From contig NZ_CANMNK010000005.1 in the NCBI RefSeq assembly GCF_947499265.1, positions 370,173-434,172 of the forward strand: 64,000 bases of DNA, given 5' to 3'. Shown piece after piece: positions 14,059 to 32,342 of this stretch. The position numbers were made by a program, and so were the translations under genes. This DNA is from an uncultured Roseobacter sp. Lineage in GTDB: Bacteria; Pseudomonadota; Alphaproteobacteria; Rhodobacterales; Rhodobacteraceae. A model generated the notes under the pieces. It saw only the letters and a program-made list of their open reading frames with translations, was not told where the DNA came from and searched no databases. Every line of letters begins with the position of its first letter. The stretch's first letter is position 1.

Positions 14059-14544
14059 CTAGCGCCGATAGATGAAACACCGCCCCGGCACGGCCTCCGG
14101 CGGCAGGTCAATCTCGGTCAGCTCATCAAAATACATCCGGTCACTGGAAACCATCACCCCGCCCGGCGCCAACAAAGGGGCAATCAAGGGAGAGATTTTC
14201 CGCGCAAAGATATCGTTCTTCTCGGCATTATGTCCGCCCAGGTCCGCGTGGATCAGACGTGCGGTTGCCCCGAATTGCTTCAAGGCGGCGGGCAGGGTTT
14301 CGAAGACGTCGCCCAGAAACACGCGATCATCGGGGGGCGTGCTGTCGGGGTGCGAGGCCACCGCCCGCTCGAACACATAGATGTCCCGGGCGGGTAAAAT
14401 CTCGCACATGTGGTGATAGGTCCGCCCATTGCCCAGGCCCAACTCAAAAACCGAGCCGCGCAGGTCCCTGGTCAACACCGCGGCGTGATTCAAACACGCG
14501 CGCTGTGAAACCATTCGATTGATGAAGAGATCCAGGCGGCTCAT
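14059..14544 (-). CDS. small class I SAM-dependent methyltransferase
   Basis: A 161-residue protein. The glycine-rich SAM motif VFELGLGNGRTYHHM is at residues 32-46, followed by an acidic strand end (VFERA) and LIHADLGGHNAEKND. I chose the ATG at 14544 (MSRLDLFINRM) because the paralogue at 31395 begins MSRLESMRRR and aligns from there; a weak AAAGG lies upstream. The shared ELGLGNGRT, SPLIAPLLAPGG and C-terminal FIYRR/LFYRAP features mark a subfamily. The acceptor substrate is unknown. It is divergent from the peptide importer, with about 170 bp between the starts. Confidence 0.75.
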   Translation of the reverse strand: MSRLDLFINRMVSQRACLNHAAVLTRDLRGSVFELGLGNGRTYHHMCEILPARDIYVFERAVASHPDSTPPDDRVFLGDVFETLPAALKQFGATARLIHADLGGHNAEKNDIFARKISPLIAPLLAPGGVMVSSDRMYFDELTEIDLPPEAVPGRCFIYRR

Positions 14545-14716
14545 TGTCGGTACCTTTGCAAAATTGTCACCTTCACATGCCTCTTTTGAATGAAAATTGG
14601 TAGCGCAAAGGGGCTCACGTATCTGTGCGCTGGACGTGAGCATCGAAATCAAGTTGACTGATGCCGCCGGGGAGCGGCTTTTTGGGACGTATTTGCATCA
14701 AGGAAGAAATAGCAAC

Positions 14717-16489: not shown

Positions 16490-18404
16490 AGTTTTCGCTG
16501 CCCTTCTGATCGTGCTGACGACCGCCGCAAGCGGCCATGCCGACACGCCGACCCCATCTGAGAGCAGTTTCTGGCAAAAAGAAGTGGGCAAAGGCATTCT
16601 GCCGCCCGTGACCCAACGCCTGCCGCAAGAGCCGCTGGTCGTTGACCTCGAAGCTAAAGGCCGCACCTTGGGGGAGCAGGGCGGCACGTTGCGCACGCTG
16701 GTGTCGCGCTCAAAAGATGTGCGGCAGATGGTGGTCTATGGCTACGCGCGGCTCGTAGGCTATGACCAGAACTACAATCTTTATGCTGACATCCTGCGCG
16801 ATATCGAGGTGGTCGAGGGCCGCAAATTCACGCTGCACCTGCGCAAAGGGCATCGCTGGTCCGATGGGCATCCCTTTACCTCCGCGGATTTCGAATACTA
16901 CTGGAAACACGTGGCTCAGAACAAGGAACTGAGCCCCGCCGGCCCGCCACAACATATGGTCGTGGACGGCGTGTTGGCGGATGTCACCTTTCCCGATGCG
17001 CATACCGTGGTGATCGAATGGCCGACGCCAAACCCGCAGTTCTTGCAGCTGCTGGCGCAGGCGAGCCCCTTTTTCATCTACCGGCCTGCGCATTACCTGA
17101 AACAGTTTCACGCGGAGTTCACAGACGCCAAGACCCTGAAGAAAAAAATCAAAAAAGCCCGTGTACGCGCCTGGGCGGCGCTGCACAACGACCGTGACAA
17201 CATGTATAAATTCGACAATCCGGACCTGCCGACGCTGCAGCCCTGGATGAACGCATCCGGCACGAAATCCAGCCGTCATCTCTTTGTGCGCAACCCCTAT
17301 TATCATCGGATCGACACGCAGGGTGTGCAATTGCCCTACATCGATATCGTGGAAATGACGATTGTCGGTGGCGGGTTGATCGCAGCCAAGGCCAACGCGG
17401 GCGAGGTGGATCTGCAGGCGCGGGGGCTGGATTTCCCGGACATCTCGATCCTGAAAAAGGGCGAGACCGATGGGGCGGGATACAAGACGCTGCTCTGGGC
17501 CAATGGCGCGGCAAACCAGATCACCATCTATCCCAATCTGAACTTCGCCGACCCGGTATGGCGCGAGGTGATCCGCGATGTGCGCTTTCGCCGCGCGCTC
17601 AGCCTTGGCATCGACCGGCGCATGATCAACCGCGCGCTGTACTTTGGCCTGGCGAAGGAAGGCGGCATGACCGCACTAGCCAAAAGCCCGTTCTTTGACC
17701 CCGCCAATCTCTTCTCATGGTCCATCTACTACCCGGCCAAGGCCAACGCGCTGCTGAATGAAATGGGGCTGACGGAGCGCACCCCCGATGGCATCCGCAA
17801 GTTGCCGGACGGGCGCCCGATGGAATTTGTGATTGAAACCGCAGGTGAGCGGCAGGAGGTCGAAAACGCGCTGGCCATCGTGACGGATACCTGGCGCGAG
17901 ATCGGCATCAAGCTGATCATGCGCCCGCTGGACCGCGATATTCTGCGCAACCGGGTCTATTCGGGTCTGTCAATGTCTGCGGTCTGGTTCGGCTGGGACA
18001 ATGGCCTGCCGCAAGCCTACACACCGCCCGAATACCTCGCGCCGACGCATCAGGAGTTCTTCGCCTGGCCCAAGTGGGGGCAGTACTATCAAACCGGTGG
18101 CGAGGTTGGCGAAGCCCCGGACATGCCTGCGGCCAAACGGTTGATGCAGCTGAGCTGGGATTGGGATCACACCACCGACACGGACGAACGGGCCGCGATC
18201 TGGCGCGAAATGCTGGCCATTCATGCAGATCACCAGTTTGGCATCGGCATTCTATCGGAAGCGCCACAACCCGTTGTCGTCTCGGACCGGCTGCGCAATG
18301 TCCCCGAGGTGGCCAAATGGGCCTGGGACCCTGGTGCCCATTTCGGCATTCACCGGATTGACGAATTCTACTACGACGAACCGTTCCAGCAGCTCACGCA
18401 ATGA
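16482..18404 (+). CDS. extracellular solute-binding protein family 5 (YejA-like)
   Basis: A 640-residue periplasmic binding protein with a Sec signal, MFRVFAALLIVLTTAASGHA, cleaved before DTPTPSE. At over 600 residues it is larger than DppA or OppA and close to YejA. The typical family-5 block FTLHLRKGHRWSDGHPFTS lies near residue 115. It overlaps the ATPase gene by 8 bp and the first permease gene by 4 bp, so the complete importer is one operon. The ligand is probably a peptide or peptide-like compound, by family; the large insert could reflect a bulky ligand. Confidence 0.88.
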   Translation: MFRVFAALLIVLTTAASGHADTPTPSESSFWQKEVGKGILPPVTQRLPQEPLVVDLEAKGRTLGEQGGTLRTLVSRSKDVRQMVVYGYARLVGYDQNYNLYADILRDIEVVEGRKFTLHLRKGHRWSDGHPFTSADFEYYWKHVAQNKELSPAGPPQHMVVDGVLADVTFPDAHTVVIEWPTPNPQFLQLLAQASPFFIYRPAHYLKQFHAEFTDAKTLKKKIKKARVRAWAALHNDRDNMYKFDNPDLPTLQPWMNASGTKSSRHLFVRNPYYHRIDTQGVQLPYIDIVEMTIVGGGLIAAKANAGEVDLQARGLDFPDISILKKGETDGAGYKTLLWANGAANQITIYPNLNFADPVWREVIRDVRFRRALSLGIDRRMINRALYFGLAKEGGMTALAKSPFFDPANLFSWSIYYPAKANALLNEMGLTERTPDGIRKLPDGRPMEFVIETAGERQEVENALAIVTDTWREIGIKLIMRPLDRDILRNRVYSGLSMSAVWFGWDNGLPQAYTPPEYLAPTHQEFFAWPKWGQYYQTGGEVGEAPDMPAAKRLMQLSWDWDHTTDTDERAAIWREMLAIHADHQFGIGILSEAPQPVVVSDRLRNVPEVAKWAWDPGAHFGIHRIDEFYYDEPFQQLTQ

Positions 18405-19429
18405 TGTTTCTCCGCTACGCCATCTATCGGTTCATCACGATGCTGCTCACCCTCTGGGTGGTGTCAATCATGATTTTCGTGATCATCAACCTGCCGCCCG
18501 GCGACTATCTGTCTAACCAGATCGCAGAGCTGCGCGCCACGGGACAGGCCGAAGGGGTGGCCAAGGCCGAGTTCCTGCGCACCGAATATGCGCTCGACCG
18601 ACCGATCTGGGAGCAGTACCTGATCTGGGTCGGCATGGCGCCCGGCCCGCAGGGCTGGTACGGGCTCATTCAGGGTAATTTCGGCTGGTCCTTTGAATTT
18701 GACCGGCCTGTGTCTGAAATCGTGGGCGATGCATTGTGGCTGACGGTTCTGGTGAACCTTGCCGCCGTGCTCTTTGTCTATCTGGTCGCCCTGCCGCTGG
18801 GCGTCATCGCTGCGGCAAGATCCGAGACATGGGTGGATTATACCGCGGCCTTTGTCGGCTACCTAGGGCTGGCCACGCCAAACTTCCTGCTCGCGCTGAT
18901 GCTGTTTTATTATGGGAACAAGTATTTCGATCTGCCCATTGGCGGGCTGATGGATCCGCAGTTCGAGGGGGAGCCGATGTCCTTTGACAAGGTGAAATCC
19001 ATCCTTGTCCACCTGATCGTGCCAACCTTCGTCATCGGGACCTCGGGGGCCGCTGCCATGATGCAACGGCTGCGCGCCAATATGCTGGACGAGCTCAGCA
19101 AACCCTATGTCGAGACCGCCAAGGCCAAGGGTCTGGCCCCGTCAAAGCTGCTCGCCAAATATCCCCTGCGCATGGCGTTCAACCCCTTTGTGGCGGATAT
19201 TGGCAACCTGCTGCCCGCGATGGTATCTGGGTCGGTTCTGGTCTCTGTTGTTTTGGGCCTGCAAACCATCGGGCCGTCGCTGCTGACTGCACTGAAGTCT
19301 CAAGACCAGTTCCTGGCCGGGTTCGTGTTGATGTTCGTTGCCCTACTCACCCTCATCGGCACGATGATTTCGGATTTACTGCTGGTTCTGCTTGACCCGC
19401 GCATCCGCTACGGAGCCCGCGGCACATGA
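18401..19429 (+). CDS. peptide ABC transporter permease (YejB/DppB-like)
   Basis: A 342-residue inner-membrane permease. The N-terminal helix MFLRYAIYRFITMLLTLWVV followed by INLPPGDYL is the standard DppB/OppB opening. The EAA loop is in AKGLAPSKLLAKYPLRMAF. It ends in DPRIRYGARGT, typical of the family. About six hydrophobic segments are visible. It overlaps the binding-protein gene by 4 bp and the second permease gene by 4 bp. Confidence 0.92.
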   Translation: MMFLRYAIYRFITMLLTLWVVSIMIFVIINLPPGDYLSNQIAELRATGQAEGVAKAEFLRTEYALDRPIWEQYLIWVGMAPGPQGWYGLIQGNFGWSFEFDRPVSEIVGDALWLTVLVNLAAVLFVYLVALPLGVIAAARSETWVDYTAAFVGYLGLATPNFLLALMLFYYGNKYFDLPIGGLMDPQFEGEPMSFDKVKSILVHLIVPTFVIGTSGAAAMMQRLRANMLDELSKPYVETAKAKGLAPSKLLAKYPLRMAFNPFVADIGNLLPAMVSGSVLVSVVLGLQTIGPSLLTALKSQDQFLAGFVLMFVALLTLIGTMISDLLLVLLDPRIRYGARGT

Positions 19430-20580
19430 CCCAATTGCCTGATGGTCGCTATGTCGACGACGCCCCCTATTCCGACACCACCGACCTCAGTGCGCTGGAA
19501 CGTTCTGATATGGACGCTCCCAACTGGGTGTTGGTCTGGCGCAAATTCAAGCGGCACAAGCTAGGTCTGATATCGGGTATCTTTCTGCTGCTCAGCTACC
19601 TGATGCTGCCTGTTGCGGGGTTCATCGCGCCTTATACGCCCAACGAACGCAGCGCGGATTACCTCTATGCGCCACCGCAATCCGTGCACCTGTGGCATGA
19701 GGGCGAGTTTATCGGGCCTTTCGTTTACCCCACCACCGCCACGGCGGATCTGGTCAACTACCGCTGGACCTATGAGACCGACACGACACGGCCCATGCCG
19801 CTGCAATTCTTTTGTGATGGCGACCAGTACAAGCTCTTTGGCCTGATCCGGTCTGACACGCATCTTTTCTGCGCGCCAGAAGGCGCCACGATCTTTTTGT
19901 GGGGGTCGGATCGGTTGGGGCGGGATGTGTTCAGCCGTATTCTCTACGGCGCACAACTCTCGCTCACCGTGGGCCTTATTGGCATCACGGTGTCCTTCGC
20001 CCTTGGCATCTTTTTTGGCTCCATCGCGGGGTATTTCGGCGGCAAGACGGATTGGGTGATCAACCGGGTCATCGAGATTCTGCGCTCCTTGCCAGAACTG
20101 CCGCTGTGGCTGGCGCTGTCGGCAGCGGTGCCGTCGAACTGGAGCCCGGTGGCGGTTTTCTTCATCATCTCGATCATTCTGGGCATACTCGACTGGCCCG
20201 GGTTGGCGCGGGCGGTCCGAAGTAAATTCCTCTCGTTGAGAGAGGAGGAATATGTCAGAGCGGCAGAGATGATGGGAGCAAAACCCGGTCGGGTCATTCG
20301 CAGGCACCTGTTGCCCAATTTCATGTCCCACCTCATCGCTTCTGCCACGCTGTCGATCCCGGCGATGATCCTGGGTGAAACAGCCCTCAGCTTCCTGGGC
20401 CTCGGCCTGCGCGCGCCTGCCGTGAGTTGGGGCGTGATGCTCAATGATGCCCAGAACCTCGCCAGCATCGAGATTTACCCGTGGACGGCCATCCCGATGC
20501 TGCCGATCATCTTTGTGGTACTGGCCTTCAACTTTCTGGGCGACGGGTTACGCGCCTCTTTGGACCCTTACAAATCCTGA
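19426..20580 (+). CDS. peptide ABC transporter permease (YejE/DppC-like)
   Basis: A 384-residue permease, longer than the roughly 300 residues of DppC. The extra length is a periplasmic stretch of about 100 residues between the first hydrophobic segment (LGLISGIFLLLSYLMLPVAG) and the core that starts at WGSDRLGRDVFSR. The EAA loop is RAAEMMGAKPGRVIRRHLLP, and the C-terminus is LGDGLRASLDPYKS. Such an insertion is also found in YejE-type permeases and may dock the large binding protein, which is inference. It is the last gene of the importer. Confidence 0.92.
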   Translation: MTQLPDGRYVDDAPYSDTTDLSALERSDMDAPNWVLVWRKFKRHKLGLISGIFLLLSYLMLPVAGFIAPYTPNERSADYLYAPPQSVHLWHEGEFIGPFVYPTTATADLVNYRWTYETDTTRPMPLQFFCDGDQYKLFGLIRSDTHLFCAPEGATIFLWGSDRLGRDVFSRILYGAQLSLTVGLIGITVSFALGIFFGSIAGYFGGKTDWVINRVIEILRSLPELPLWLALSAAVPSNWSPVAVFFIISIILGILDWPGLARAVRSKFLSLREEEYVRAAEMMGAKPGRVIRRHLLPNFMSHLIASATLSIPAMILGETALSFLGLGLRAPAVSWGVMLNDAQNLASIEIYPWTAIPMLPIIFVVLAFNFLGDGLRASLDPYKS

Positions 20581-21677: not shown

Positions 21678-22789
21678 ACCGCGGTCTTTCCCTTTGGCTC
21701 GACGTACTGCGGGTGGGTGCAACGCTTGTGGTCGTCTTGTCGCATATCGCCTATGCCCGTTTTACGCGCGGGGATTATCAGTTCATGCGCGATCTCAATC
21801 TGGGCAGCGATGCTGTCATCGTTTTCTTCGTGATTTCGGGAATTGTGATTGCTTACGCCGCTGAGCGCGACAAGCATCTGCCGACCTACACCTTCAACCG
21901 CGGCACGCGGCTGCTGTCGGTTCTGCTGCCTGCTCTGCTGTTGACCTTCGTCTTTGACCAGATGGGACAACGCATTGACCCCGGTGCCTATCCGGCTGGG
22001 TATTACGGGGCCTTGCCGCTTTGGGAGATGCTGCTGCGCGGGCTGAGCTTTTCCAACGAATGGGGCGCATTTGAGCGCGTGCGTCTGGGCACCAACGGTC
22101 CGCTTTGGTCACTGAGTTACGAGGCCGCCTATTACATCCTTTTCGGGGTGGCATTTTTCATGTCAGGCGCGCGCCGGGTGATCATCCTGCTGGGCCTGGT
22201 CGTGCTCTTCGGTCCGCGGGTTTTGCTGTTGATGCCTGCATGGCTGATGGGCGTCTGGCTCTGGCGCAAACTGGCCGCCGGTGGCGCGGGCACGCTCCCC
22301 TCAAAAACGGCGCGCATGATGGCATGGGGGGCACCCGTGCTCTACGCGGCCTGCTTGTGGATCGGCGTGCCCGACATGCTCGCACATCTGACCGCCGAGG
22401 CCATGGCCCCCGCCCGCTACCGGCACGTGCTGGCCTTCTCCGATGAATTCATCTGGAACGCACTGGTCGGCGTATTCACAACCATCCATATCTTCGGCAT
22501 GGCCCGCCTTTTGCAAAACCACACGCGGGACAACCGCGCCGTGCGCTGGTGGGCCGGTGCGAGCTTCTCGATCTATGTGACCCATTATCCTGCGTTACAC
22601 CTGATCGACTCTGTCTTTCCGGCGGAAACACTGGCGCGAGACGCCCTTTTTGTGGTCGGATCCATCGCCATCAGCCTGATCTTTGCCCAGATCTTCGAAA
22701 GGCGGATCGCGGGGCTGCGCAGCTGCATCCGTGCGCTCATCGGGCATTGGGGCCCTAGCGGTCGTCGCCCGCGTCCTCACCATCCATAA
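21674..22789 (+). CDS. acyltransferase family 3 (OafA/NodX-like) membrane protein
   Basis: A 371-residue, mostly hydrophobic protein with about ten membrane segments. It starts MNRGLSLWLDVLRVGATLVV followed by LSHIAYARF, the characteristic family opening with a conserved His. I chose ATG 21674 because it forms an ATGA overlap with the hydroxylase stop. The family O-acetylates or O-acylates surface sugars and lipids. Its 3' end overlaps the tail of the opposing mechanosensitive channel gene by 35 bp. The acceptor is unknown; coupling to the hydroxylase suggests acylation of the newly made hydroxyl group. Confidence 0.88.
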   Translation: MNRGLSLWLDVLRVGATLVVVLSHIAYARFTRGDYQFMRDLNLGSDAVIVFFVISGIVIAYAAERDKHLPTYTFNRGTRLLSVLLPALLLTFVFDQMGQRIDPGAYPAGYYGALPLWEMLLRGLSFSNEWGAFERVRLGTNGPLWSLSYEAAYYILFGVAFFMSGARRVIILLGLVVLFGPRVLLLMPAWLMGVWLWRKLAAGGAGTLPSKTARMMAWGAPVLYAACLWIGVPDMLAHLTAEAMAPARYRHVLAFSDEFIWNALVGVFTTIHIFGMARLLQNHTRDNRAVRWWAGASFSIYVTHYPALHLIDSVFPAETLARDALFVVGSIAISLIFAQIFERRIAGLRSCIRALIGHWGPSGRRPRPHHP

Positions 22790-25106
22790 GCTCCTCTTCC
22801 ATGGAAGCCTGCGCCGCCGCCGAGATGGATTTCTTATCCTCTTCGGACAGGTCCTCGACCTTGCCATCCTTCAGCCGCACGGTGACCTCTTTATGCGCGA
22901 ACTGGATGCCCTCGCGCTCGAAAAGGATACGGATTTCTTCGTAAACCCGCTTGCGCACCAACCATTGATCGCCGGGTTTGGTCATGAATTTGACCCGGAT
23001 AATCATCGCGGAATCCTGCATTTCAATGACACCCTGGGACTTCAGCGGCTGGATGAAGTTTTCACCAATCACCGGATCGTCCAATAGTTCGACCCCCAAC
23101 TTCTTGATCAGCTTGCGCACCTTCTCCACATCGGTGTCATAGGTCACGCGCAGGGGCAGTTTCATGATCACCCAGTCGCGTGAATAATTCGTCATGACCT
23201 GAATTTCGCCAAAGGGTATGGTATGCAATGCGCCCAGGTGATGGCGCAGCTGGAAAGACCGCACCGAGATTTTCTCCACCGTGCCTTTGACACCACCGAT
23301 GTCCAGATACTCACCTTTGCGAAAGGCATCATCAAACAGGAAGAACCCGCCCGAAAAGATGTCGCGCACCAGCGCCTGAGACCCAAAGCCCACCGCGACA
23401 CCGACCACACCTGCGCCAGCAAAAAGCGGGCCGACGTTCACACCCATTTCCAACAGGATGATGAGGCTGATCGTGACCAACACCACGATCAGAATGAAAT
23501 TGCGGAACAGCGGCAGCAGCGTCGCCAGACGGCTGGCCCCGGTCCCACCACCATCGCCGCCCAGATCCTCTTCGCTCACGTCCCCCTGTTCTTCCAATAT
23601 CTTATTGTCGATCCAGATGCGGAAGGTGTGATAAACAATATAGCCGATGAATATGATCACCATGATGTCGAGAAGCTGGGCCGCGTAGCTTTCCACCATC
23701 TGGGCCGAATTATTGTCCCAGATGTAGAAAAACGCATAGACTCCGGCGACAAACGCCAGAATACCCGCCACACGCCGCGCCAGCGCTTCGAAGGAATTCA
23801 ACGCATGCCGCGGACGCAGCGGCATTGGCGCCTCTTCCATCGGGATGTCGTCCGGGGTGACCCCATCTGCCGCGCCTGCTTCGTTCAATTCGCGCAAGGC
23901 CCGGGCGCGTTGAAAGCTGCGCTCGATCATGAAATTGATCACGCCATAAACCACGATGATCGACATCAGGATGATATACGCCCCGGCGATCAGCGGGATC
24001 GACGACGGGTGCCCCAGCACCAGATCATAGGTCAGTTCGAGCCACGCAAAGATCACGTAAAGGATGACCACCGGGGCCCAGATCGTTGTCATGAACTTCA
24101 CAGCCCAGCTGACCTGGGTCACGGATTTACCGTTCCGCATCGCGTTGGAAATGGCGGCGCGGTTTACCAGCACCATAACGATGTTCAGCAACACCACGAT
24201 GGCCGACATCAGCGAAGACAGGAAGGCGTAGACGTCGTAATTAAGGCCCAACTCACCAATCCAGACGCCAAAGAGAATGGCCGTGATATCAAAGGTGCCC
24301 AGCACCCAGAGCCAGGTGTGAAGCCGTTTGGCATCCCGGTTGCTCATCACGGGCACCCGGTATTGTTCAAGGTAGGGGGATAGCACCATGCGCCACAGGT
24401 TCGCGACCAGACGGCACATGAAATAGGCGGTATTGATCACGCTGACGGTGAACTGCATCGCCTTGTCTTCCAGCGGGCCAAAGATCAGCGCCCCAAGGAC
24501 ATAGGCCACCAGCATGGACACCAGAATACCGATGACGCCCATGAAAAACCTGAAGACGAGAAAGGGCATCTTCTCGGCGTATCCCACCGGGTTTTCCCGG
24601 ATGCGGGAGACCACGAAATTCCTGACAATCCTCTTGCCATAGACCTGGCTCTCGAAAACCATCCCCACAGCGAAAAGCAGCAGCGAGACAATCAGCGCAT
24701 AGGCGAAAGCCCAGATCGTGCCATCCGGGCTGGTGGCGCGCAGGATGTAGATCACCTCGTTGAAGGCATTGGGCAGATCCAGGATGCGATCCACCAGCGC
24801 CGTGCGGAATCGCACCACCGTGTCCTGCGCCTTCATCAGGCGCGATCCTTCGACGCCTTCGGCCGGGGCATCCTCGACCTCGGCGGCTGTGCTCAGAATC
24901 TCGCCATCATTGTTGATGACGACCACGCCGACACCATTCTCCGACGCTTGACGCATGATCTCCGAAATTTGATCGGTGCTTTCGCTGCTCGACGAATTCG
25001 CACCTGGCAGGAGAGAGCCCAAACCCTGTGCATCTGTATCTGTGGGAGAAATCGAACAAAAGAGCGCCAAAAAGCAGAGAAGAATGGCAAAAAAGCGCAC
25101 GCGCAT
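22755..25106 (-). CDS. large MscS-family mechanosensitive ion channel
   Basis: A 783-residue protein. I placed the start at ATG 25106, giving the signal peptide MRVRFFAILLCFLALFCSIS; an upstream in-frame extension to 25232 adds no recognisable signal, though no strong Shine-Dalgarno site precedes 25106. An N-terminal periplasmic region is followed by several membrane segments. The MscS pore and beta domain follows at roughly residues 570-700, with GVVGVAVGFGSQALVRDIF and GEYLDIGGVKGTVEKI. The C-terminus is acidic. It should open under membrane tension to release osmolytes. Its extra helices resemble the bigger MscS paralogues rather than minimal MscS. Confidence 0.9.
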   Translation of the reverse strand: MRVRFFAILLCFLALFCSISPTDTDAQGLGSLLPGANSSSSESTDQISEIMRQASENGVGVVVINNDGEILSTAAEVEDAPAEGVEGSRLMKAQDTVVRFRTALVDRILDLPNAFNEVIYILRATSPDGTIWAFAYALIVSLLLFAVGMVFESQVYGKRIVRNFVVSRIRENPVGYAEKMPFLVFRFFMGVIGILVSMLVAYVLGALIFGPLEDKAMQFTVSVINTAYFMCRLVANLWRMVLSPYLEQYRVPVMSNRDAKRLHTWLWVLGTFDITAILFGVWIGELGLNYDVYAFLSSLMSAIVVLLNIVMVLVNRAAISNAMRNGKSVTQVSWAVKFMTTIWAPVVILYVIFAWLELTYDLVLGHPSSIPLIAGAYIILMSIIVVYGVINFMIERSFQRARALRELNEAGAADGVTPDDIPMEEAPMPLRPRHALNSFEALARRVAGILAFVAGVYAFFYIWDNNSAQMVESYAAQLLDIMVIIFIGYIVYHTFRIWIDNKILEEQGDVSEEDLGGDGGGTGASRLATLLPLFRNFILIVVLVTISLIILLEMGVNVGPLFAGAGVVGVAVGFGSQALVRDIFSGGFFLFDDAFRKGEYLDIGGVKGTVEKISVRSFQLRHHLGALHTIPFGEIQVMTNYSRDWVIMKLPLRVTYDTDVEKVRKLIKKLGVELLDDPVIGENFIQPLKSQGVIEMQDSAMIIRVKFMTKPGDQWLVRKRVYEEIRILFEREGIQFAHKEVTVRLKDGKVEDLSEEDKKSISAAAQASMEEELMDGEDAGDDR

Positions 25107-25385
25107 AAAGAAAGTCCGGGCAATGTTAATTTGGTGTTTGACGGTAGGGGAGCGCATGACCCATTGCAATTGCACATCAGCGCAATATCTCGCGATCACT
25201 GGTGTTTTGCACATAATTCGCTTTTGTGCCAAATATGCAGTGAAAACGGGGCAAAGCGCCCCTCACCCGACCCAAGGACCGGCCGATGCGCCTGAATTAT
25301 TTGCTTTGCACCGCGGCTGGTGTTCCCAAATTCCCCACGACAGGTATACGCTCCCCTGGCTCTGACAGGCGGGACATCCGGTAAC

Positions 25386-26609
25386 ATGAACGTGCATCAT
25401 CAAGCCGGGTCAACGGCCCAACCTGAAAGTGCCGCGGAGCCCGAGCGGTCGCTGCGTGTCATGCTTTACAGCCATGACACCTTTGGTCTGGGGCATTTGC
25501 GGCGCTCACGTGCGCTGGCCTCCGCACTGACGGCGGCAGACCCGAAAGCCTCTGCCATCATTCTGACCGGATCCCCGGTTGCCGGGCGCTTCACCTTTCC
25601 GGAGCGGGTCGACCACATGCGGCTGCCGGGCGTCACGAAACTGCCCGACGGGACCTATGTGAGCCAGACCCTGGGCCTGGACATCGATGATACGACCAAC
25701 CTGCGCTCGGGCCTGATCCAGACGGCGGTGGAGCAGTATGAACCGGACCTGCTGATCGTCGATAAAGAACCCACAGGGTTTCGCGGGGAATTGCTACCGA
25801 CACTGGAATGGCTTGAGGGGCGCGATCAGACCCGCTGTGTTCTGGGCCTGCGCGATGTGCTCGACGCGCCCTCGGTCCTGGCGGCTGAATGGGATCGCAA
25901 GGGTGCGGTCGCAGCAACCGAACGGTTCTATGATCAGATATGGGTCTATGGGCCTCGCTCGGTTTATGACCCGACAGAGGGGTTGCAGCTGTCGGAGGCT
26001 ACGCGCGCGCGGATCTACTGGACCGGGTATCTGCGCCGCGAAGTGATTGATGCCGCAGATACCCCGGATACCCCCTATGTCTTGATCACACCCGGCGGCG
26101 GCGGTGACGGTCAGGCGATGGTCAGCCTTGTCCTCGAAGCTTACGAAAAAGACCCGACCCTGAAACCCGACGCGGTGCTGGTCTATGGCCCCTTCCTGTC
26201 CGGCGAGGTCCGCGAGGCTTTTGAAGCCCGCGTTGCGAAGTTGAATGGCCGGGTGACGGCGGTCGGGTTCGACGCCAAGATCGAAGCGCTTTTTGCCGGG
26301 GCCGAAGGCGTTGTCTGCATGGGGGGCTACAACACGTTTTGCGAGGTCCTGTCATTTGATAAACGGGCCGTGATCGTGCCGCGGACGATCCCACGGCTGG
26401 AACAATGGATCAGAGCATCGCGCGCCGAAGAGCTTGGCCTTGTCCGAATGCTGGACGAAGAGCGCGACGGGATGACGCCGGAGACAATGATCGCATTCAT
26501 CCGCGGCTTACCGTCCCAGAGAAAACCATCGCACGCCGGTGCGAACGGATTGCTGGATGGTTTGGATGTCGTCGTGGCACGCGCTGCACAATTGATGGCG
26601 GATAAATGA
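25386..26609 (+). CDS. GT-B glycosyltransferase, MurG-like (COG4671 type)
   Basis: A 407-residue predicted cytoplasmic glycosyltransferase. MLYSHDTFGLGHLRRSRALA lies near the N-terminus and is the typical opening of this group. GAEGVVCMGGYNTFCEVLSF in the C-terminal half is the nucleotide-sugar-binding turn seen in MurG and family 28 enzymes. The start is ATG 25386; a longer frame from 25320 is possible. It is the first of seven genes joined by 4-bp ATGA overlaps. Donor and acceptor are unknown. The other MurG-like gene of the operon (29501) has a different sequence but the same overall plan. Confidence 0.82.
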   Translation: MNVHHQAGSTAQPESAAEPERSLRVMLYSHDTFGLGHLRRSRALASALTAADPKASAIILTGSPVAGRFTFPERVDHMRLPGVTKLPDGTYVSQTLGLDIDDTTNLRSGLIQTAVEQYEPDLLIVDKEPTGFRGELLPTLEWLEGRDQTRCVLGLRDVLDAPSVLAAEWDRKGAVAATERFYDQIWVYGPRSVYDPTEGLQLSEATRARIYWTGYLRREVIDAADTPDTPYVLITPGGGGDGQAMVSLVLEAYEKDPTLKPDAVLVYGPFLSGEVREAFEARVAKLNGRVTAVGFDAKIEALFAGAEGVVCMGGYNTFCEVLSFDKRAVIVPRTIPRLEQWIRASRAEELGLVRMLDEERDGMTPETMIAFIRGLPSQRKPSHAGANGLLDGLDVVVARAAQLMADK

Positions 26610-27853
26610 CATCAAACCGCGCGCGCCTGGGCGTGATCGTTAAAGGATGGCCGCGCCTGTCAGAGACATTCATCGCCCAGGAGCTTGTGGCGCTGGAGGA
26701 GGCTGGCCTGGCGTTCGAGATCTGGTCGTTGCGCCATCCCACGGATCATAAGACCCACCCGCTGCATGATCGGCTGCGCGCGCCGGTGCATTATCTGCCT
26801 GAATATCTGAAAGATGAACCGTTGCGGGTGCTCAAGGGGTTTTTCAGCGCGCTCACACGCCCCGGTTTCGCCGCTGCCTGGCGCGCCATTCGTGCAGATT
26901 ATCCGCGCGACCGCACGCCAAATCGCCTGCGCCGGTTCGGGCAGGCCTGTGTTCTCGCGCGCGAACTGCCGCCGGAAACGCGCGGGCTCTATGCACATTT
27001 CTTGCATACCCCGTCTTCCGTCGCCCGCTACGCGGCGATACTCACCGGCGTGCCGTGGTCATTCTCGGCCCATGCCAAGGACATCTGGACCTCACCAGAA
27101 TGGGAGTTGCGCGAAAAGCTCTCCGCAGAAAGCCATGGTGCCACCTTTGGCGCGACCTGCACCAGTTTTGGTGCGGCTTATTTAAAAGACCTCACCGACA
27201 CGCCCGACCGGGTGGATCTTGTCTATCACGGGCTTGATCTGGCGCGGTTTCCAGCCCCTCCGCAGCGAAAGCGACGACGCCCGGGTGATCCGATCAAATT
27301 GATGTCCGTCGGGCGCCTCGTCGAAAAGAAGGGGTTTGACCGGCTCATCCAGGCCTTCGGTCTGCTGCCTGCATCGGTTGACTGGCACTGGACCCATATC
27401 GGCGGTGGTGCCCTGAAAGATGAGTTGCAAGCGCTGGCGCGGACGCAGGGCGTCGCCGAGCGGATCACCTGGCATGGCCCCAGCGATCAACCAGAAGTCA
27501 TCGAGGAGATGCGCGCGGCGGACCTCTTTGTGCTGCCCAGCCGGATCGCTTCCAATGGTGATCGCGACGGGCTGCCCAATGTTCTGATGGAAGCGGCCAG
27601 CCAGAAGCTGCCCATTCTATCGACACCGGTCTCCGCCATCCCGGAATTCATCGATACCGGCACCCATGGCATTCTGACCGATGATGCCCCCACAAGCCTT
27701 GCCCGCCAGATCGAGGCGATTGCCGCCAGCCCGGAGAACGCCCAAAAAATGGCGGACGCGGCCTATGACAGACTGGTATCCGCCTTCCAGATGCACCCGG
27801 GCATTGCGCAGCTGAAATCGCGACTGACGCAGATGTTGAGCGACGGGTCATGA
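26606..27853 (+). CDS. glycosyltransferase family 4 (WcaL-like)
   Basis: A 415-residue GT-B enzyme. It opens VKGWPRLSETFIAQELVALE, the pattern of family-4 transferases such as colanic-acid WcaL. It then shows FSAHAKDIW, the hinge MSVGRLVEKKGFDRLIQAF, and LPSRIASNGDRDGLPNVLME, with the conserved acidic donor-binding motif shifted to DGLPNVLMEA. The start overlaps the preceding stop as ATGA, and the same junction joins it to the next gene. It would add a sugar with retention of configuration. The sugar is unknown. Confidence 0.88.
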   Translation: MTSNRARLGVIVKGWPRLSETFIAQELVALEEAGLAFEIWSLRHPTDHKTHPLHDRLRAPVHYLPEYLKDEPLRVLKGFFSALTRPGFAAAWRAIRADYPRDRTPNRLRRFGQACVLARELPPETRGLYAHFLHTPSSVARYAAILTGVPWSFSAHAKDIWTSPEWELREKLSAESHGATFGATCTSFGAAYLKDLTDTPDRVDLVYHGLDLARFPAPPQRKRRRPGDPIKLMSVGRLVEKKGFDRLIQAFGLLPASVDWHWTHIGGGALKDELQALARTQGVAERITWHGPSDQPEVIEEMRAADLFVLPSRIASNGDRDGLPNVLMEAASQKLPILSTPVSAIPEFIDTGTHGILTDDAPTSLARQIEAIAASPENAQKMADAAYDRLVSAFQMHPGIAQLKSRLTQMLSDGS

Positions 27854-28923
27854 CCAAAGTTGCCTTCTATGCGCCGATGAAACCGCCGACCCATCCGGTG
27901 CCCTCGGGGGACCGTGCGATGGGCCGCGCCATCCTCGCGGCGCTCAGATATGGCGGGATAGAGGCTGAACTGGTCTCAAAGCTGCAGACACGCGACAAGG
28001 ACGGTCATGTCGATACCCAAGCGCGGCTGCTGGCGCTGGCAGAGGCGGAAGCAACACGGTTGATCGCGCAAGGGCGCTATGCGGATTGGCAGGTATGGAT
28101 CACCTATCACTGCTATTACAAAGCCCCTGATCTGGTCGGCCCGACGGTGGCCGCGGCGTTGAACCTGCCATATTTCCAGATCGAGGCCACACGGGCACGC
28201 AAGCGGTTGAACGGACCGTGGTCCACCTTTGCCCAGGCCGCAGAAGCGGCCAGCGATGCAGCGGATGTGATTTTCCACCTGACCGCCAGAGACGCAGAAT
28301 CTCTTTATGCCTACGCGCCCGCACACCAGCGGATCGTCCACCTGCCGCCCTTCCTGCCGCGCAACGATTTACCCCCCGCCAGCTCCGGCGATGGCCCGAT
28401 GCTCAGCGTCGGCATGCTGCGGCATGGCGACAAATTCGCGTCCTACGAGCTTATCGCCGACACGCTGACCCTTCTCAAAACGCCCGACTGGCGCTTGGTG
28501 ATCGCGGGTGACGGGCCAGCGCTCAACGCCGTCGCCTCCATCATGCAACCCTTTGGAGATCGGGTAGAGCTACGCGGATCGCTGGACGACGCGGCATTGG
28601 GGGAGGCTTACGGGCAGGCCAGCCTGCTGTTTTGGCCCGGTGTCAACGAAGCCTTCGGCATGACCTACCTCGAAGCACAGGCCGCAGGGCTGCCCGTCGT
28701 CGCGCAGGACAGACCGGGTGTGATTGACGTTCTGGCACCACATCAGCATCCAACGCCCGCAGGCGGGCCGGAGGTATTGGCGCAGGAAATTGATTTGCTC
28801 CTCGGTGATTGCGCGGAACGCGCGCGGCGCGGACAGGCCGCACGCGACTATGTTGCAACCCACCATCTGCTCGGGGCTGCAAGCAAGACACTCTGCGATG
28901 CCGTCACCGGGGCAATTGCATGA
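27850..28923 (+). CDS. glycosyltransferase, GT4-like
   Basis: A 357-residue GT-B protein beginning MTKVAFYAPMKPPTHPVPSG, with a glycine-poor acceptor domain. The C-terminal donor domain contains GDKFASYELIADTLTLL, VIAGDGPAL and GVNEAFGMTYLEAQAAGLPV, in which the E-x7-E retaining family-4 motif is visible. Four-base overlaps on both sides place it in the same transcript as its neighbours. The N-terminal half is less typical than in the preceding transferase, so a different acceptor is likely. Confidence 0.83.
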   Translation: MTKVAFYAPMKPPTHPVPSGDRAMGRAILAALRYGGIEAELVSKLQTRDKDGHVDTQARLLALAEAEATRLIAQGRYADWQVWITYHCYYKAPDLVGPTVAAALNLPYFQIEATRARKRLNGPWSTFAQAAEAASDAADVIFHLTARDAESLYAYAPAHQRIVHLPPFLPRNDLPPASSGDGPMLSVGMLRHGDKFASYELIADTLTLLKTPDWRLVIAGDGPALNAVASIMQPFGDRVELRGSLDDAALGEAYGQASLLFWPGVNEAFGMTYLEAQAAGLPVVAQDRPGVIDVLAPHQHPTPAGGPEVLAQEIDLLLGDCAERARRGQAARDYVATHHLLGAASKTLCDAVTGAIA

Positions 28924-29504
28924 TACGTCTCGCATTGATCCGCCACGGCCACACCGCCTGGAACCGGCAGGGCCGCATTCAGGGACGCACCGATGTGCCG
29001 CTGGATGCAGAAGCCGAAGCGCAACTTGCCAGCCTGGCATTGCCGGATGACTGGCGCGCGGCAATGCTCTGGTCGAGCCCTTTGCAACGTGCAACGCGCA
29101 CGGCAACCCTGCTGGCGGGCAGACCTCCCAAGACCGCCCCCGCGTTGACAGAGATGGATTGGGGCGATTGGGAAGGTCAGGAGGGCGCAGTCCTGCGGGC
29201 CGATCCATCGTCTGGATACCGGGACATAGAAGATTGGGGGTGGGATTTCCGCCCCCCAAAGGGTGAAACCCCCGCAGAGCTACGCGCGCGCCTTCTGCCC
29301 TGGGCGCAAGACCTGCGTGAGGACGCAGTAGCGGTCTGCCATATCGGCATCATGCGCGTTCTGATGGCCCATGCTACGGGCTGGGATTTCAAAGGTCCCG
29401 CGCCCTTCCAGATCAAGCGCAACAGGCTATTCGTGATCACGATCTCCGATGATATCTGGACCACTACAGATACCCCCATCAGACTAAGGCAACGCGCGTC
29501 ATGA
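28920..29504 (+). CDS. histidine phosphatase family protein
   Basis: A 194-residue phosphoglycerate-mutase-like enzyme. The catalytic RHG is at residues 8-10 (LIRHGHTAWNRQGRIQGRTD), and a second catalytic His is in AVCHIGIMRVL. I chose ATG 28920 since it overlaps the preceding stop as ATGA; the longer frame from 28809 lies inside the glycosyltransferase gene. The family includes GpmB, CobC and sugar-phosphate phosphatases. Inside this glycan operon it may dephosphorylate a sugar-phosphate intermediate or the final product, which is inference. Confidence 0.88.
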   Translation: MIRLALIRHGHTAWNRQGRIQGRTDVPLDAEAEAQLASLALPDDWRAAMLWSSPLQRATRTATLLAGRPPKTAPALTEMDWGDWEGQEGAVLRADPSSGYRDIEDWGWDFRPPKGETPAELRARLLPWAQDLREDAVAVCHIGIMRVLMAHATGWDFKGPAPFQIKRNRLFVITISDDIWTTTDTPIRLRQRAS

Positions 29505-30640
29505 AGATCATGATCGCCGTGACACATCTTTTGGGCACGGGTCATCTGACCCGCGCGCTCACGCTTGCACGGGCCTTCGCGGCGGAAGGACATGCCAGCA
29601 CGGTCGTGACCGGCGGTATGCCTGCGCCCCATCTGGACAGCACGAATGTGTCCCTTGTCCAACTGCCGCCACTGCGGTCGGACGGGGTGAATTTCACGCG
29701 GCTCCTGAACGCCGAGGGGCTGGATGCCGGTGAAGAGGTAATGCAGGCCCGGATGCAGGCGTTGGAGGTGACGCTGCACGACCTCAGGCCCGACGTCCTG
29801 ATCACGGAGCTATTTCCCTTCGGACGTCGGGTGCTGCGCGCGGAATTCTTGCATCTGCTCACCTGCGCCGCGACACAGCTCAAGCGGCCGCTGATCTGCG
29901 CCTCGGTCCGCGATATCCTCGCACCCCCTTCCAAACCTGAAAAGGCCCATGCCACCGAAAACATCATCACCTCCCACTACGATGCGGTACTGGTGCATTC
30001 GGATCGGGCGATAACACCGTTGAACATCAGCTGGCCCGTGACCGAAACGCTGGAGGATTACCTGGACTATACCGGATTTGTGGCTCCGCCCGCACCTGCC
30101 CCGCATCCGCACCACCTGGGATCTGGAGAGATCCTGGTCAGCGCGGGGGGCGGCGACGTCGGCACAGATCTCTTCGCCGCGGCCCTTGATGCCGCACGCC
30201 GAGATCCGGCACGGTCCTGGCGGTTGCTGATCGGGGGGACAAATGCCCAGAGCAGGGTAGCGGCGCTGCAGGTCGATGCCCCCACAAACGTCGTCATTGA
30301 ACCCGCCCGGCCCGATTTCAGACACATGCTGCACCACGCGGCGGCATCCATTTCGATGGCAGGCTACAACACCGCGCTTGATCTTCTGCAAACCGGCACA
30401 CCGGCTGTCTTTGTCCCCTTCGATGCCGGTGGCGAAGTCGAGCAGAGCCTGCGCGCCAAAGCTTTGGCAGCGCTGCCCGGCATATCAGTGCTTCCCACCG
30501 CGCAGTTGAGCGGCGACGCGCTCTTGCACCATCTGGCGCAGGTGATGACCGCGCCTCAAAGATCGCCGCAAACCAACGCACTGGACGGCGCACGCAAGAC
30601 CGTTGAAATCGTCGAAACCCTCGTGAGCGCCCGCCGATGA
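29501..30640 (+). CDS. GT-B glycosyltransferase, MurG-like
   Basis: A 379-residue protein starting MKIMIAVTHLLGTGHLTRAL, a glycine-containing N-terminal loop like that of MurG. The C-terminal part has ILVSAGGGDVGTDLFAAAL and HHAAASISMAGYNTALDLLQ, the nucleotide-sugar turn, then TPAVFVPFDAGGEVEQSLRA. It is a second MurG-like transferase in the operon, with 4-bp overlaps on both sides. Donor and acceptor are unknown. Confidence 0.8.
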   Translation: MKIMIAVTHLLGTGHLTRALTLARAFAAEGHASTVVTGGMPAPHLDSTNVSLVQLPPLRSDGVNFTRLLNAEGLDAGEEVMQARMQALEVTLHDLRPDVLITELFPFGRRVLRAEFLHLLTCAATQLKRPLICASVRDILAPPSKPEKAHATENIITSHYDAVLVHSDRAITPLNISWPVTETLEDYLDYTGFVAPPAPAPHPHHLGSGEILVSAGGGDVGTDLFAAALDAARRDPARSWRLLIGGTNAQSRVAALQVDAPTNVVIEPARPDFRHMLHHAAASISMAGYNTALDLLQTGTPAVFVPFDAGGEVEQSLRAKALAALPGISVLPTAQLSGDALLHHLAQVMTAPQRSPQTNALDGARKTVEIVETLVSARR

Positions 30641-31398
30641 GCATCGACTGGTCTCCCCTGCGCGCGGAACTGGCCCTTTGGCGCGCGGAACAGATGGTCC
30701 TGCCCCTATGGTGGCGGGATGATGATGCGATTGCTGCAACCTCCGAACTGGACCGTTTGGCGCAGCTGTCTGACGATCTGTCACTGCCTGTGCATCTGGC
30801 CGTCATTCCCGCCCACGCGGAGACGTCACTCGCCACCATGGTCACGGCGCATCCCAATCTCATCCCGATGGTGCATGGCTGGGCGCATGAGAACAGGGCG
30901 CCCAGCGGGTCAAAGAAAGCTGAGTTTGGCCATCCGCGCGTTGGTGCCAACGACGAACTTCAGAGAGCTCTAAGCACCTTGCGCGGCCTTTTCGGGTCAA
31001 GCCTGATGCCTGCCTTTGTTGCCCCATGGAACCGCCTGCATCCCTCCTTCATGCAAAACCTGTCCGACCTGGGCTATGCCGCAGTTTCCACGTTTCTGCC
31101 CCGCCCCTCCGCGCATCCCGCGCCGGGATTGCTGGCCGTCAATACACATATCGACCCGATTGATTGGCGGGGCACGCGTGGCTTGCTGGACCCTGATCGC
31201 ATCATCGCCGACGCCGTCGCCCAGCTTCAGGCCCGACGCCGAGGGGATGTCGATAGGACAGAGCCACTTGGCTACCTCACACACCACCTCGTGCACACCC
31301 CGGATGTCTGGACATTCTCACGCGCCTTTCTGAGCGAAATGCTCAACGGTGGTGCGACGCGCACACTACTGACCGAAGCCATAAAGGAGACGACATGA
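30637..31398 (+). CDS. polysaccharide deacetylase (NodB-like) family protein
   Basis: A 253-residue protein with the metal-binding pattern of carbohydrate esterase family 4. WWRDDDAI at residues 25-32 gives the Asp pair, and VHGWAHENRAP around residues 79-89 gives the two His ligands. There is no signal peptide, so it probably acts in the cytoplasm on a nucleotide sugar, lipid-linked or soluble N-acetyl substrate. It sits between a glycosyltransferase and a methyltransferase with 4-bp overlaps on both sides. The product would carry a free amino sugar. Confidence 0.82.
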   Translation: MSIDWSPLRAELALWRAEQMVLPLWWRDDDAIAATSELDRLAQLSDDLSLPVHLAVIPAHAETSLATMVTAHPNLIPMVHGWAHENRAPSGSKKAEFGHPRVGANDELQRALSTLRGLFGSSLMPAFVAPWNRLHPSFMQNLSDLGYAAVSTFLPRPSAHPAPGLLAVNTHIDPIDWRGTRGLLDPDRIIADAVAQLQARRRGDVDRTEPLGYLTHHLVHTPDVWTFSRAFLSEMLNGGATRTLLTEAIKETT

Positions 31399-31874
31399 GC
31401 CGATTGGAATCCATGCGCAGGCGATTGTCCGCACAGATCGATGGCCTGAACTGGGCGTCGAAATCTGTCGCGGACATGCCGGGCGATGTTCTGGAATTGG
31501 GGCTCGGGAACGGGCGGACCTTCGATCACCTGCGCGAGCGCCTGCCCGACCGCCGGATCTGGGTGATCGACCGGGTGCTGAAACCGCATCCGTCCTGTAT
31601 TCCGCCAGAGGATGATTTCCTGTTGGGTGAGGCCGACGACATGTTGGCTGAACTGGCCAACCGCGATGCCAAGATGGTTTTGGCCCACTATGATTTTGGA
31701 TTTGGCGTCAAGGAACTGGATGTCGAAGAGGGCGCGCGCCTCTCACCCTTCATCGCCCCCCTGATGCACCCTGGCGGCCTGATCGTCAGCCAACAACCTC
31801 TGATCGGGTTCACCCAGATCACAGGCCCGGACACCATTGATCCGGAACGCTATCTCTTTTACCGCGCCCCATAA
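31395..31874 (+). CDS. small class I SAM-dependent methyltransferase, operon end
   Basis: A 159-residue protein with the SAM motif VLELGLGNGRTFDHL near residue 35 and WVIDRVLK. It is clearly paralogous to the methyltransferase at 14059-14544: same length, the MSRL start, ELGLGNGRT, and the SPFIAPLMHPGG segment. It starts in the stop codon of the deacetylase gene and is the last member of the seven-gene operon. It may cap or decorate the glycan product. The acceptor is unknown. Confidence 0.8.
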   Translation: MSRLESMRRRLSAQIDGLNWASKSVADMPGDVLELGLGNGRTFDHLRERLPDRRIWVIDRVLKPHPSCIPPEDDFLLGEADDMLAELANRDAKMVLAHYDFGFGVKELDVEEGARLSPFIAPLMHPGGLIVSQQPLIGFTQITGPDTIDPERYLFYRAP

Positions 31875-31991: not shown

Positions 31992-32120
31992 ATGCTTAGA
32001 ATTGCTACATTGTGCGCTGCCCTGATCGCTCTTGCCGCTTGTGAAACCACAAAGGGTGCTGGAGAGGACATTCAGGACCTTGGTGAGGCGATTGAAGGGG
32101 CCGCAACCAACCCGACCTGA
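31992..32120 (+). CDS. entericidin EcnA/B-like small lipoprotein (copy 1)
   Basis: A 42-residue protein with an AAAGGA ribosome-binding site 8-9 bases before the ATG. It has a short hydrophobic leader and the lipobox LAAC at residues 14-17, followed by the amphipathic ETTKGAGEDIQDLGEAIEG. This is the entericidin pattern (ACNTxxGxGxDIxxxGxxI). Entericidins are outer-membrane or envelope lipoproteins linked to stationary-phase lysis in enterobacteria; in alphaproteobacteria the role is untested. A second, diverged copy follows 105 bp downstream. Confidence 0.88.
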   Translation: MLRIATLCAALIALAACETTKGAGEDIQDLGEAIEGAATNPT

Positions 32121-32225: not shown

Positions 32226-32342
32226 ATGATCAGACTTGCTTTTGCACTCGCTGCCGTTCTGGCTTTGACCGCATGCGAAACCACCAAGGGCCTTGGGCGC
32301 GACGTCCAGAATGCGGGCGAAGCGCTGGATCAGGCCATCTGA
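32226..32342 (+). CDS. entericidin EcnA/B-like small lipoprotein (copy 2)
   Basis: A 38-residue protein preceded by AAAGGA. Its lipobox ends in LTAC at residue 17, followed by ETTKGLGRDVQNAGEALDQA. It shares the CETTKG-LG-D-Q--GEA spacing with copy 1, so the pair arose by duplication. The entericidin locus of E. coli also holds two tandem small lipoproteins, described as antidote and toxin. Whether the same split exists here cannot be seen. A strong terminator follows. Confidence 0.88.
   Translation: MIRLAFALAAVLALTACETTKGLGRDVQNAGEALDQAI

Follow-up and report, generated by a model that had tools for sequence, protein, structure and literature searches.

A seven-gene glycosyltransferase operon shares its distribution with an Opp-type importer and a degenerate exporter-like ABC protein among Rhodobacterales

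The window analyzed here, a stretch of 64,000 nucleotides from an uncultured Roseobacter sp., carries seven closely packed genes, four of which encode glycosyltransferases, and raises the question of what such an operon makes and with which partners it works. The genes form one run at positions 25386-31874, all on the + strand:

g1, 25386..26609, +, GT-B glycosyltransferase whose C-terminal domain is GT28-like; the module's core gene
g2, 26606..27853, +, GT4-type glycosyltransferase (PF00534, 99.9 bits)
g3, 27850..28923, +, GT4-type glycosyltransferase (PF00534, 63 bits)
g4, 28920..29504, +, histidine phosphatase, branch 1 (PF00300, 135.8 bits)
g5, 29501..30640, +, second GT28-like glycosyltransferase (PF04101, 34.7 bits)
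g6, 30637..31398, +, cytoplasmic NodB/CE4-fold deacetylase (predicted structure)
g7, 31395..31874, +, PF12692 SAM methyltransferase (236.9 bits)

A 4-bp ATGA overlap is present at 6/6 junctions, and coordinates and junctions alike agree with an earlier note on this DNA, which had described seven genes fully overlapped by ATGA. Such close spacing is not special to the source strain: in 80 relatives, ATGA or GTGA was found at the stop in 71/78, 40/80, 76/80, 72/80, 62/80 and 40/60 cases for junctions 1 to 6 respectively, counts that omit cases in which the two genes were not both found. Overlaps by themselves are ordinary, since the adjoining importer operon also shows them, with four bases at 2/3 junctions. 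The "stoichiometric assembly line" once read into them does not follow, as overlaps mean coupled translation and not equal amounts, and g3-g7 are absent from some relatives: one locus (L112) holds g1-g4 only and Sinorhizobium holds g1-g2-g5.

Pfam names g2 and g3 Glycos_transf_1, g4 His_Phos_1 and g7 PF12692 Methyltransf_17, as expected from the two GT4-type transferases, histidine phosphatase and small methyltransferase noticed earlier. The closest solved chains to g4 are those of alpha-ribazole phosphatase, and the solved relative of g7 is 3iht. Both g1 (25.1 bits) and g5 (34.7 bits) exceed the cut-off of 22 of the Pfam model Glyco_tran_28_C and are GT28-like, but the label "MurG-like" given to them before is a loose one: against the MurG equivalog TIGR01133 (cut-off 250.25) g5 reached 27.1 bits and g1 had no match, and a PDB sequence search returned a weak MurG relative of g5 (7d1i, E 0.017) and no match for g1. 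Neither a signal nor a membrane helix was apparent in g1-g7, as no 19-residue segment has a mean Kyte-Doolittle value above 1.6, and all seven proteins look cytoplasmic. A PADLOC search of g1-g7 and one ABC copy gave no defence-system match at 1e-5.

The sixth gene product could be classified through its predicted structure. No Pfam model, whether for deacetylases or otherwise, exceeded its cut-off for g6, and a sequence search of the PDB returned just two adenosine deaminase chains at E ~1. The model (pLDDT 96.4) has the NodB/CE4 fold, and g6 is on this prediction a NodB/CE4-fold deacetylase, which, with no signal helix seen, matches the "signal-less polysaccharide deacetylase" proposed from the letters. 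Residues D28-D29-D30, H80 and H84 are invariant across 55 aligned sequences and were assigned by eye to the Asp-His-His metal site of the CE4 motif.

Loci were counted by tblastn because ORF calling got some frames wrong where loci are GC-rich. The operon order was found again in 80 loci of named records, mainly roseobacters; among 60 loci of other alphaproteobacteria, g1-g6 are in the same order in 34 and g1-g5 in 40, with g2 following g1 in 56/60. The genes thus co-occur, and their order is kept widely, outside the source strain, a point that the earlier note had proposed to check; its "no known product" stands as well, in that no curated family in the libraries searched names a pathway, and literature searches found no description of this cluster. 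Orthologs of g1 were detected in 47/176 Rhodobacterales and 45/160 other alphaproteobacteria, more than a quarter of those sampled. Relatives are present in roseobacters, Azospirillum and nitrogen-fixing rhizobia, with plasmid-borne orthologs in Sulfitobacter, Tritonibacter, Ruegeria TM1040, Azospirillum and Sinorhizobium. The Sinorhizobium locus additionally encodes a nucleotide-sugar dehydrogenase, a protein with a cyclase domain and a polysaccharide lyase; the PDB sequence search gave no match for this lyase.

Within the window, the operon is accompanied by the following genes:

Second PF12692 methyltransferase, adjoining the importer, 14059..14652, - (G000:C5:384234-384716 (-), 239.7 bits)
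Opp-type ABC importer, fused ATPase, 14597..16489, +, two intact Walker A motifs
Importer substrate-binding protein (SBP), 16482..18404, +, closest solved chain 5ipw
Importer permease B, 18401..19429, +, best NCBIfam model Opp4B (210.9 bits, below the cut-off of 450)
Importer permease C, 19426..20580, +, best NCBIfam model Opp4C (263.3 bits, below the cut-off of 350)
MscS-family mechanosensitive channel, 22755..25232, -, divergent from g1, context only

The channel occupies the site where other alphaproteobacteria often carry the degenerate ABC protein described below. The whole importer spans 14597-20580. Its SBP aligns with the solved chains 5ipw (279.3 bits), pectin-binding SPH1118 (210.4 bits, E 4.7e-61) and alpha-galactoside-binding 6epy (86.5 bits), and is by sequence related to pectin- and galactoside-binding proteins; 5ipw itself bears the name oligopeptide-binding. 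A YejABEF muropeptide/microcin C importer was considered and rejected, the scores lying under the equivalog cut-offs (YejF 526.4/834, YejB 112.1/445, microcin C permease 112.2/439 bits).

The distribution of these genes points to partners of the operon. Of 176 Rhodobacterales genomes, an identical set of 47 carries g1, the importer SBP and an exporter-like ABC protein, and none of the three was detected in the remaining 129 at the thresholds used, the limit of 1e-100 for the ABC protein having been chosen post hoc. PF12692 above 200 bits is found in 41/47 g1-positive and 0/129 g1-negative genomes. As an unrelated-family comparison, the PF14099 lyase family was counted in 14/47 g1-positive versus 26/129 g1-negative Rhodobacterales (Fisher p 0.22); Fisher p-values exaggerate strength here because related genomes are not independent observations of presence. 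This uronate lyase, whose distribution does not track g1 in Rhodobacterales, was discarded as a constant part of the module. In 30/47 genomes the ABC protein lies more than 30 kb from g1 or the SBP or on another contig, some linkage among these 30 possibly being hidden by contig breaks, and one genome (G141) retains both importer and g1 at a distance of 1 Mb. The 160 other alphaproteobacteria, of which 137 were sampled as one per family, divide into 44 with both g1 and the ABC protein, one with g1 alone, two with the ABC protein alone and 113 with neither (157/160 concordant). At 45 of the 60 class loci, the ABC gene or a cyclic-nucleotide-binding (cNMP) gene is the immediate, divergent upstream neighbor of g1; at 43, importer genes lie downstream, within about 250 bp in 33/40 measured. 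The operon forms one half of a larger module: the seven genes co-occur, but the earlier note's view of the operon alone gives way, as the importer and the ABC protein share its distribution in the 176 Rhodobacterales.

The source genome encodes two copies of this ABC protein on other contigs; the earlier observation of "no export gene" is hence true of the window only, and the argument from it to a cytoplasmic product breaks down at genome level. All five copies scanned have the PF00664 transmembrane domain (61.5-83.2 bits), the nucleotide-binding domain contains a long insertion, and a cNMP-binding domain is fused to the protein or adjacent. The canonical Walker A motif, G-x4-GK-[ST], is absent from 56 of 58 copies (ORFs no shorter than 700 aa, drawn from 75 loci) and present in L132 and L168. 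The protein may be unable to hydrolyze ATP, so that by sequence it is at most a candidate exporter. Rhodobacterales copies are just 30-35% identical to the query, and their orthology is assumed.

Our preferred reading, which we hold tentatively (probability about 0.45), is that the operon provides the synthesis arm of an ancient glycan module of alphaproteobacteria, to which the ABC protein and the importer also belong. Two GT28-like and two GT4 enzymes, all of GT-B type and cytoplasmic, would assemble a short hetero-oligosaccharide. A precursor or carrier would be dephosphorylated by g4, g6 would de-N-acetylate a sugar to leave an unsubstituted amine, and methylation of the product would fall to g7 and its paralog. 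The product, probably on a small or lipid carrier, would be handed to the degenerate exporter-like ABC protein, and the Opp-type importer next to the operon would recover the glycan or its fragments. Observed here are the genes and their order, the joint distribution, the missing Walker A, and the predicted fold and conserved metal residues of g6; an oligosaccharide as product, the task of each enzyme, the transport direction and cyclic-nucleotide control are inferences. This reading is supported because g1, the SBP and the ABC protein share a distribution, class loci often place an ABC or cNMP gene upstream of g1 and importer genes downstream, relatives of the SBP bind pectin and galactosides, g6 combines a conserved CE4-type triad with a fold shared with ArnD, and Sinorhizobium has the dehydrogenase, cyclase-domain protein and lyase at its locus. 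It is weakened because 5ipw is named oligopeptide-binding and Opp-type importers frequently carry peptides, because the ABC protein may lack ATP hydrolysis, because the lyase link of Sinorhizobium is absent in Rhodobacterales, and because the ABC gene sits inside the retrieved stretch in only 1/80 named loci. It seems improbable, though conceivable, that the degenerate ABC protein acts as a cyclic-nucleotide-controlled, ATP-independent glycan translocator or receptor; operon, importer and ABC protein would then form a class-wide loop, governed by a second messenger, through which alphaproteobacteria produce a private oligosaccharide, release it and take it up again. The co-occurrence itself supplies a functional context for PF12692 (structure 3iht), for a deacetylase named by no library searched, and for an Opp-type importer and an ABC protein without canonical ATP site.

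About half as probable as the preferred reading is an order of events in which import comes first, the transporter bringing in an environmental oligosaccharide or peptide that the operon glycosylates, deacetylates and methylates in the cytoplasm. The importer genes close behind the glycosyltransferase genes and the resemblance of the SBP to pectin- and galactoside-binding proteins would fit, whereas the distribution shared with an exporter-like protein and four transferases points to a made product rather than catabolism, and no glycoside hydrolase was found in a small selection of neighbor proteins scanned. We consider it unlikely that the operon is part of a conventional capsule or surface polysaccharide cluster whose flippase and polymerase genes are dispersed: the dehydrogenase and lyase at the Sinorhizobium locus, and the S. 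meliloti msbA2 operon, which elsewhere joins glycosyltransferases to an ABC exporter (excerpt of PMC3687685), speak for it, but no initiating transferase, Wzx or Wzy was recognized among g1-g7 and the neighbor proteins scanned, and the ABC protein is degenerate. Moreover, gene content is rather constant throughout the class. Capsule loci are typically variable in this respect. A small cofactor-like glycoside in the style of mycothiol or bacillithiol, whose synthesis uses the same trio of GT4, phosphatase and deacetylase, is very improbable: g2 (49.9 and 44 bits) and g3 (28.6 and 33.4 bits) are far under the MshA (462.5) and BshA (273.7) equivalog cut-offs, g6 has a NodB and not an LmbE fold, and the importer and ABC partner would be left unexplained. 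That the genes lack a functional link and merely co-travel on replicons or islands, as the plasmid-borne orthologs might suggest, seems the least probable reading, since the distribution is identical despite the ABC gene not being found within 30 kb in 30/47 Rhodobacterales and despite the separation of importer and g1 in G141.

Viewed as a glycan module, the system resembles several known ones in part. The partner ABC protein is like the type IV ABC exporters MsbA, PCAT1 and TM287/288 in its transmembrane domain and unlike them in the loss of Walker A, the insertion in the nucleotide-binding domain and the cNMP-binding domain. Predicted fold and metal-binding residues of g6 are those of CE4/NodB deacetylases, ArnD and HP0310, at only ~7-17% identity in structural alignments; the substrate of ArnD is a sugar linked to lipid, on the cytoplasmic face. 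With mycothiol and bacillithiol synthesis, in which the deacetylase is of the LmbE fold, the operon shares the logic of GT4, phosphatase and deacetylase, but it differs in its four transferases, its deacetylase fold and its scores below the equivalog cut-offs. The msbA2 operon of S. meliloti (SMb21188-SMb21191), described in excerpts of PMC3687685 and PMC12239276 as glycosyltransferases with an MsbA-like ABC protein for a polysaccharide of undefined type, offers the same combination in an alphaproteobacterial host; it lies at ~938 kb on pSymB, whereas the S. meliloti relative of the present operon lies at 832,991-840,796, and this distance of about 100 kb led us to reject it as the counterpart. 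A guess that this relative corresponds to tags near SMb20802-20808, of which smb20804 and smb20805 are linked to capsule in one paper, was set aside, as no result obtained here connects the tags to the locus. The importer finds its nearest parallel in SPH1118 of Sphingomonas sp. A1, a homologous SBP that, according to an excerpt of PMC7055323, binds pectin though its importer is annotated for oligopeptides; that system imports external pectin, whereas the importer here is tied to a synthesis operon.

The run of seven genes proved to be as tightly packed as the earlier note had claimed, with ATGA shared at every junction as a 4-bp overlap, and among g2 to g7 a clear Shine-Dalgarno sequence could be recognized by eye only at g7, which fits translational coupling. 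The relevant features of the window and of the source genome (G000) are the following:

14597-20580, Opp-type ABC importer, including a substrate-binding protein (SBP)
20670-22789, fatty acid hydroxylase relative and Acyl_transf_3 protein, between importer and operon
22755-25232 (- strand), MscS channel
25386-31874 (+ strand), operon g1-g7: GT28-like (g1, g5), GT4 (g2, g3), phosphatase (g4), deacetylase (g6), methyltransferase (g7)
31992-32120 and 32226-32342, tandem small ORFs for similar lipoprotein-like peptides, ACETTKG in both, which we take to be entericidin-like
G000:C1:539187-541742 and G000:C9:86907-89453, two copies of an exporter-like ABC protein associated with a cNMP-binding domain

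Pfam assigned g1 and g5 to GT28-C, g2 and g3 to GT4-type transferases, g4 to the histidine phosphatases and g7 to PF12692, and no Pfam model exceeded its cut-off for g6; among the matches listed, none of the NCBIfam models reached its cut-off for any of g1 to g7. Hydrophobic segments above 1.6 were found in none of the seven proteins.

The gene order recurs far beyond this strain, in roseobacters and in other alphaproteobacteria. A genome scan with g6 gave 249 relatives, of which the best 80 were retained, and the same order is seen among the loci listed; g6 is present in these loci by construction, since it was the query. Both members of a pair were found in 78 loci for g1-g2, in 80 for g2-g3 through g5-g6 and in 60 for g6-g7, with a gap of at most 30 bp in 75/78, 79/80, 80/80, 80/80, 79/80 and 60/60 cases from the first junction to the last. 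The records are titled Roseobacter, Sulfitobacter, Shimia, Ruegeria, Tateyamaria, Phaeobacter and others, uncultured MAGs included, and in Ruegeria sp. TM1040 a megaplasmid carries operon, importer and MscS channel. Outside Rhodobacterales we selected 60 alphaproteobacterial loci for a g1 match (54 of 108 non-Rhodobacterales positives plus 6 from a phylum sample, five named records being excluded from the count): 56 begin with g1-g2, 40 run from g1 to g5 and 34 from g1 to g6. Shorter forms consist of g1-g4 only (G141), of g1-g2-g5 with a GT4 gene and a deacetylase gene at some distance (Sinorhizobium) or, in several loci, of little besides g1, g2 and ABC/cNMP genes. In the phylum sample of 299 genomes g1 was matched in 24 at 1e-20, 22 of them alphaproteobacterial; the other two matches (235-236 bits) are paralog-like. 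In a plasmid search, ten records named Escherichia matched g1 at less than 60% identity.

The distribution of the operon coincides with that of two transport proteins. Among 176 Rhodobacterales genomes, g1 was matched in 54, of which 47 were taken as orthologs (at least 454 bits, the next match having 236), the importer SBP at 1e-60 in 58, 47 of them with at least 798 bits (next 253), and the ABC protein in 47 at 1e-100; the three sets comprise the same 47 genomes. The ABC limit was fixed after a prior search in which full-length matches extended down to 1e-106, followed by partial ones at 5e-65; the query stems from another family and shares 30-35% identity with the Rhodobacterales copies. 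Two or three ABC copies occur in 28 of the 47 genomes, any one of which may be the partner. PF12692 exceeded 200 bits in 41/47 g1-positive genomes versus 0/129 others, which show only weak matches of 20-27 bits, whereas the control family PF14099 did not track g1 (14/47 versus 26/129, Fisher p 0.22). The deacetylase gene g6 was found in 45/47 g1-positive genomes and can exist alone, as in G138 (C2, 9075-9824), where g1, SBP and ABC protein were absent at the thresholds used. Importer and g1 lie within 20 kb in 45/47 genomes. Only 17/47 have the ABC protein at most 30 kb from importer or g1, although contig breaks may hide some links, so that close linkage does not explain the matching distribution. 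In 160 further alphaproteobacterial genomes (137 of them one per family), compared by eye, g1 and ABC protein were both present in 44 and both absent in 113, with g1 alone in G199 (86% complete) and ABC alone in G218 and G245; weak g1 matches in G238, G244 and G245 (77-180 bits) were scored absent. Since related genomes are not independent, the p-values of the Fisher tests on both sets serve as a guide only.

Neighbourhoods in the 60 loci link the same parts. An exporter-like ABC or cNMP-binding gene is divergent and immediately upstream of g1 in 45, importer genes follow the operon in 43, and g1-g5, importer and ABC/cNMP genes are all present in 30; the importer ATPase starts about 250 bp or less from the preceding gene in 33/40 cases measured. 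The Rhodobacterales arrangement differs, with the importer upstream and the ABC protein usually elsewhere: its gene directly follows g6 in G105 and in a Sulfitobacter dubius locus, probably one and the same genome, and was not within the fetched stretch in the other 79 named loci. Relatives of a 160-190 aa protein (L137 12092-12583; L146 11763-12335), itself with no Pfam or NCBIfam match, occur in 32/65 loci, mostly between g6 and importer. The window's hydroxylase relative scored 69.9 bits against the OlsE model (cut-off 475) and has relatives in 6/65 loci.

The ABC partner retains an exporter transmembrane domain, and a long insertion splits its nucleotide-binding domain. A cNMP-binding domain is fused C-terminally in three scanned Rhodobacterales copies and encoded by a neighbouring gene in G141 and the L137 genome. 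Canonical Walker A is absent in 56 of 58 ABC ORFs from 75 loci; by eye, many copies keep the lysine followed by Asp or Glu, and most Rhodobacterales copies lack the loop. The window importer ATPase, by comparison, has two intact Walker A motifs. L115 (G000:C13, 8765-11296), L116 and L117 carry a paralogous g1'-g2' set close to genes for an ABC protein and a long protein. In L117 there is also a third GT4 gene, and the ABC exporter has an intact Walker A and is followed by a protein with an APH phosphotransferase domain. The set resembles a sister system in which the exporter is functional.

As to the cargo, the window SBP scored 279 bits against 5ipw (named oligopeptide-binding), 210 bits against pectin-binding SPH1118 and 86.5 bits against an alpha-galactoside-binding protein; SPH1118 binds pectin although its importer is annotated for oligopeptides (PMC7055323). 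Extra genes at the Sinorhizobium locus encode a nucleotide-sugar dehydrogenase, a cyclase-domain protein and a PF14099 lyase. Together, these relatives and extra genes favour a carbohydrate cargo and a link to a cyclic nucleotide, as far as sequence can tell. At L153 (3341-7648, Sinorhizobium), genes for a DUF3095 protein and a guanylate-cyclase-domain protein cluster with a cNMP-binding gene.

We consider it very likely (about 90%) that operon, importer and ABC protein are parts of one functional module. What is shown for the mechanism is the distribution and neighbourhood that these parts have in common; the remaining steps are our inference. The transferases g1, g2, g3 and g5 would most likely assemble a short oligosaccharide, from which g4 could trim a phosphate and g6 an acetyl group, and which methyltransferases may modify; the ABC-cNMP protein would accept it or hand it on, and the importer would recover it. 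This loop is a tentative proposal, to which we give slightly less than even odds. The suggestion that the cluster belongs to no named pathway held in Pfam, NCBIfam and PADLOC searches, and a literature search found no description, which, with subscription journals thinly covered, is no proof of novelty. The enzymes themselves are of known kinds; the new element is their combination with a degenerate ABC-cNMP partner.
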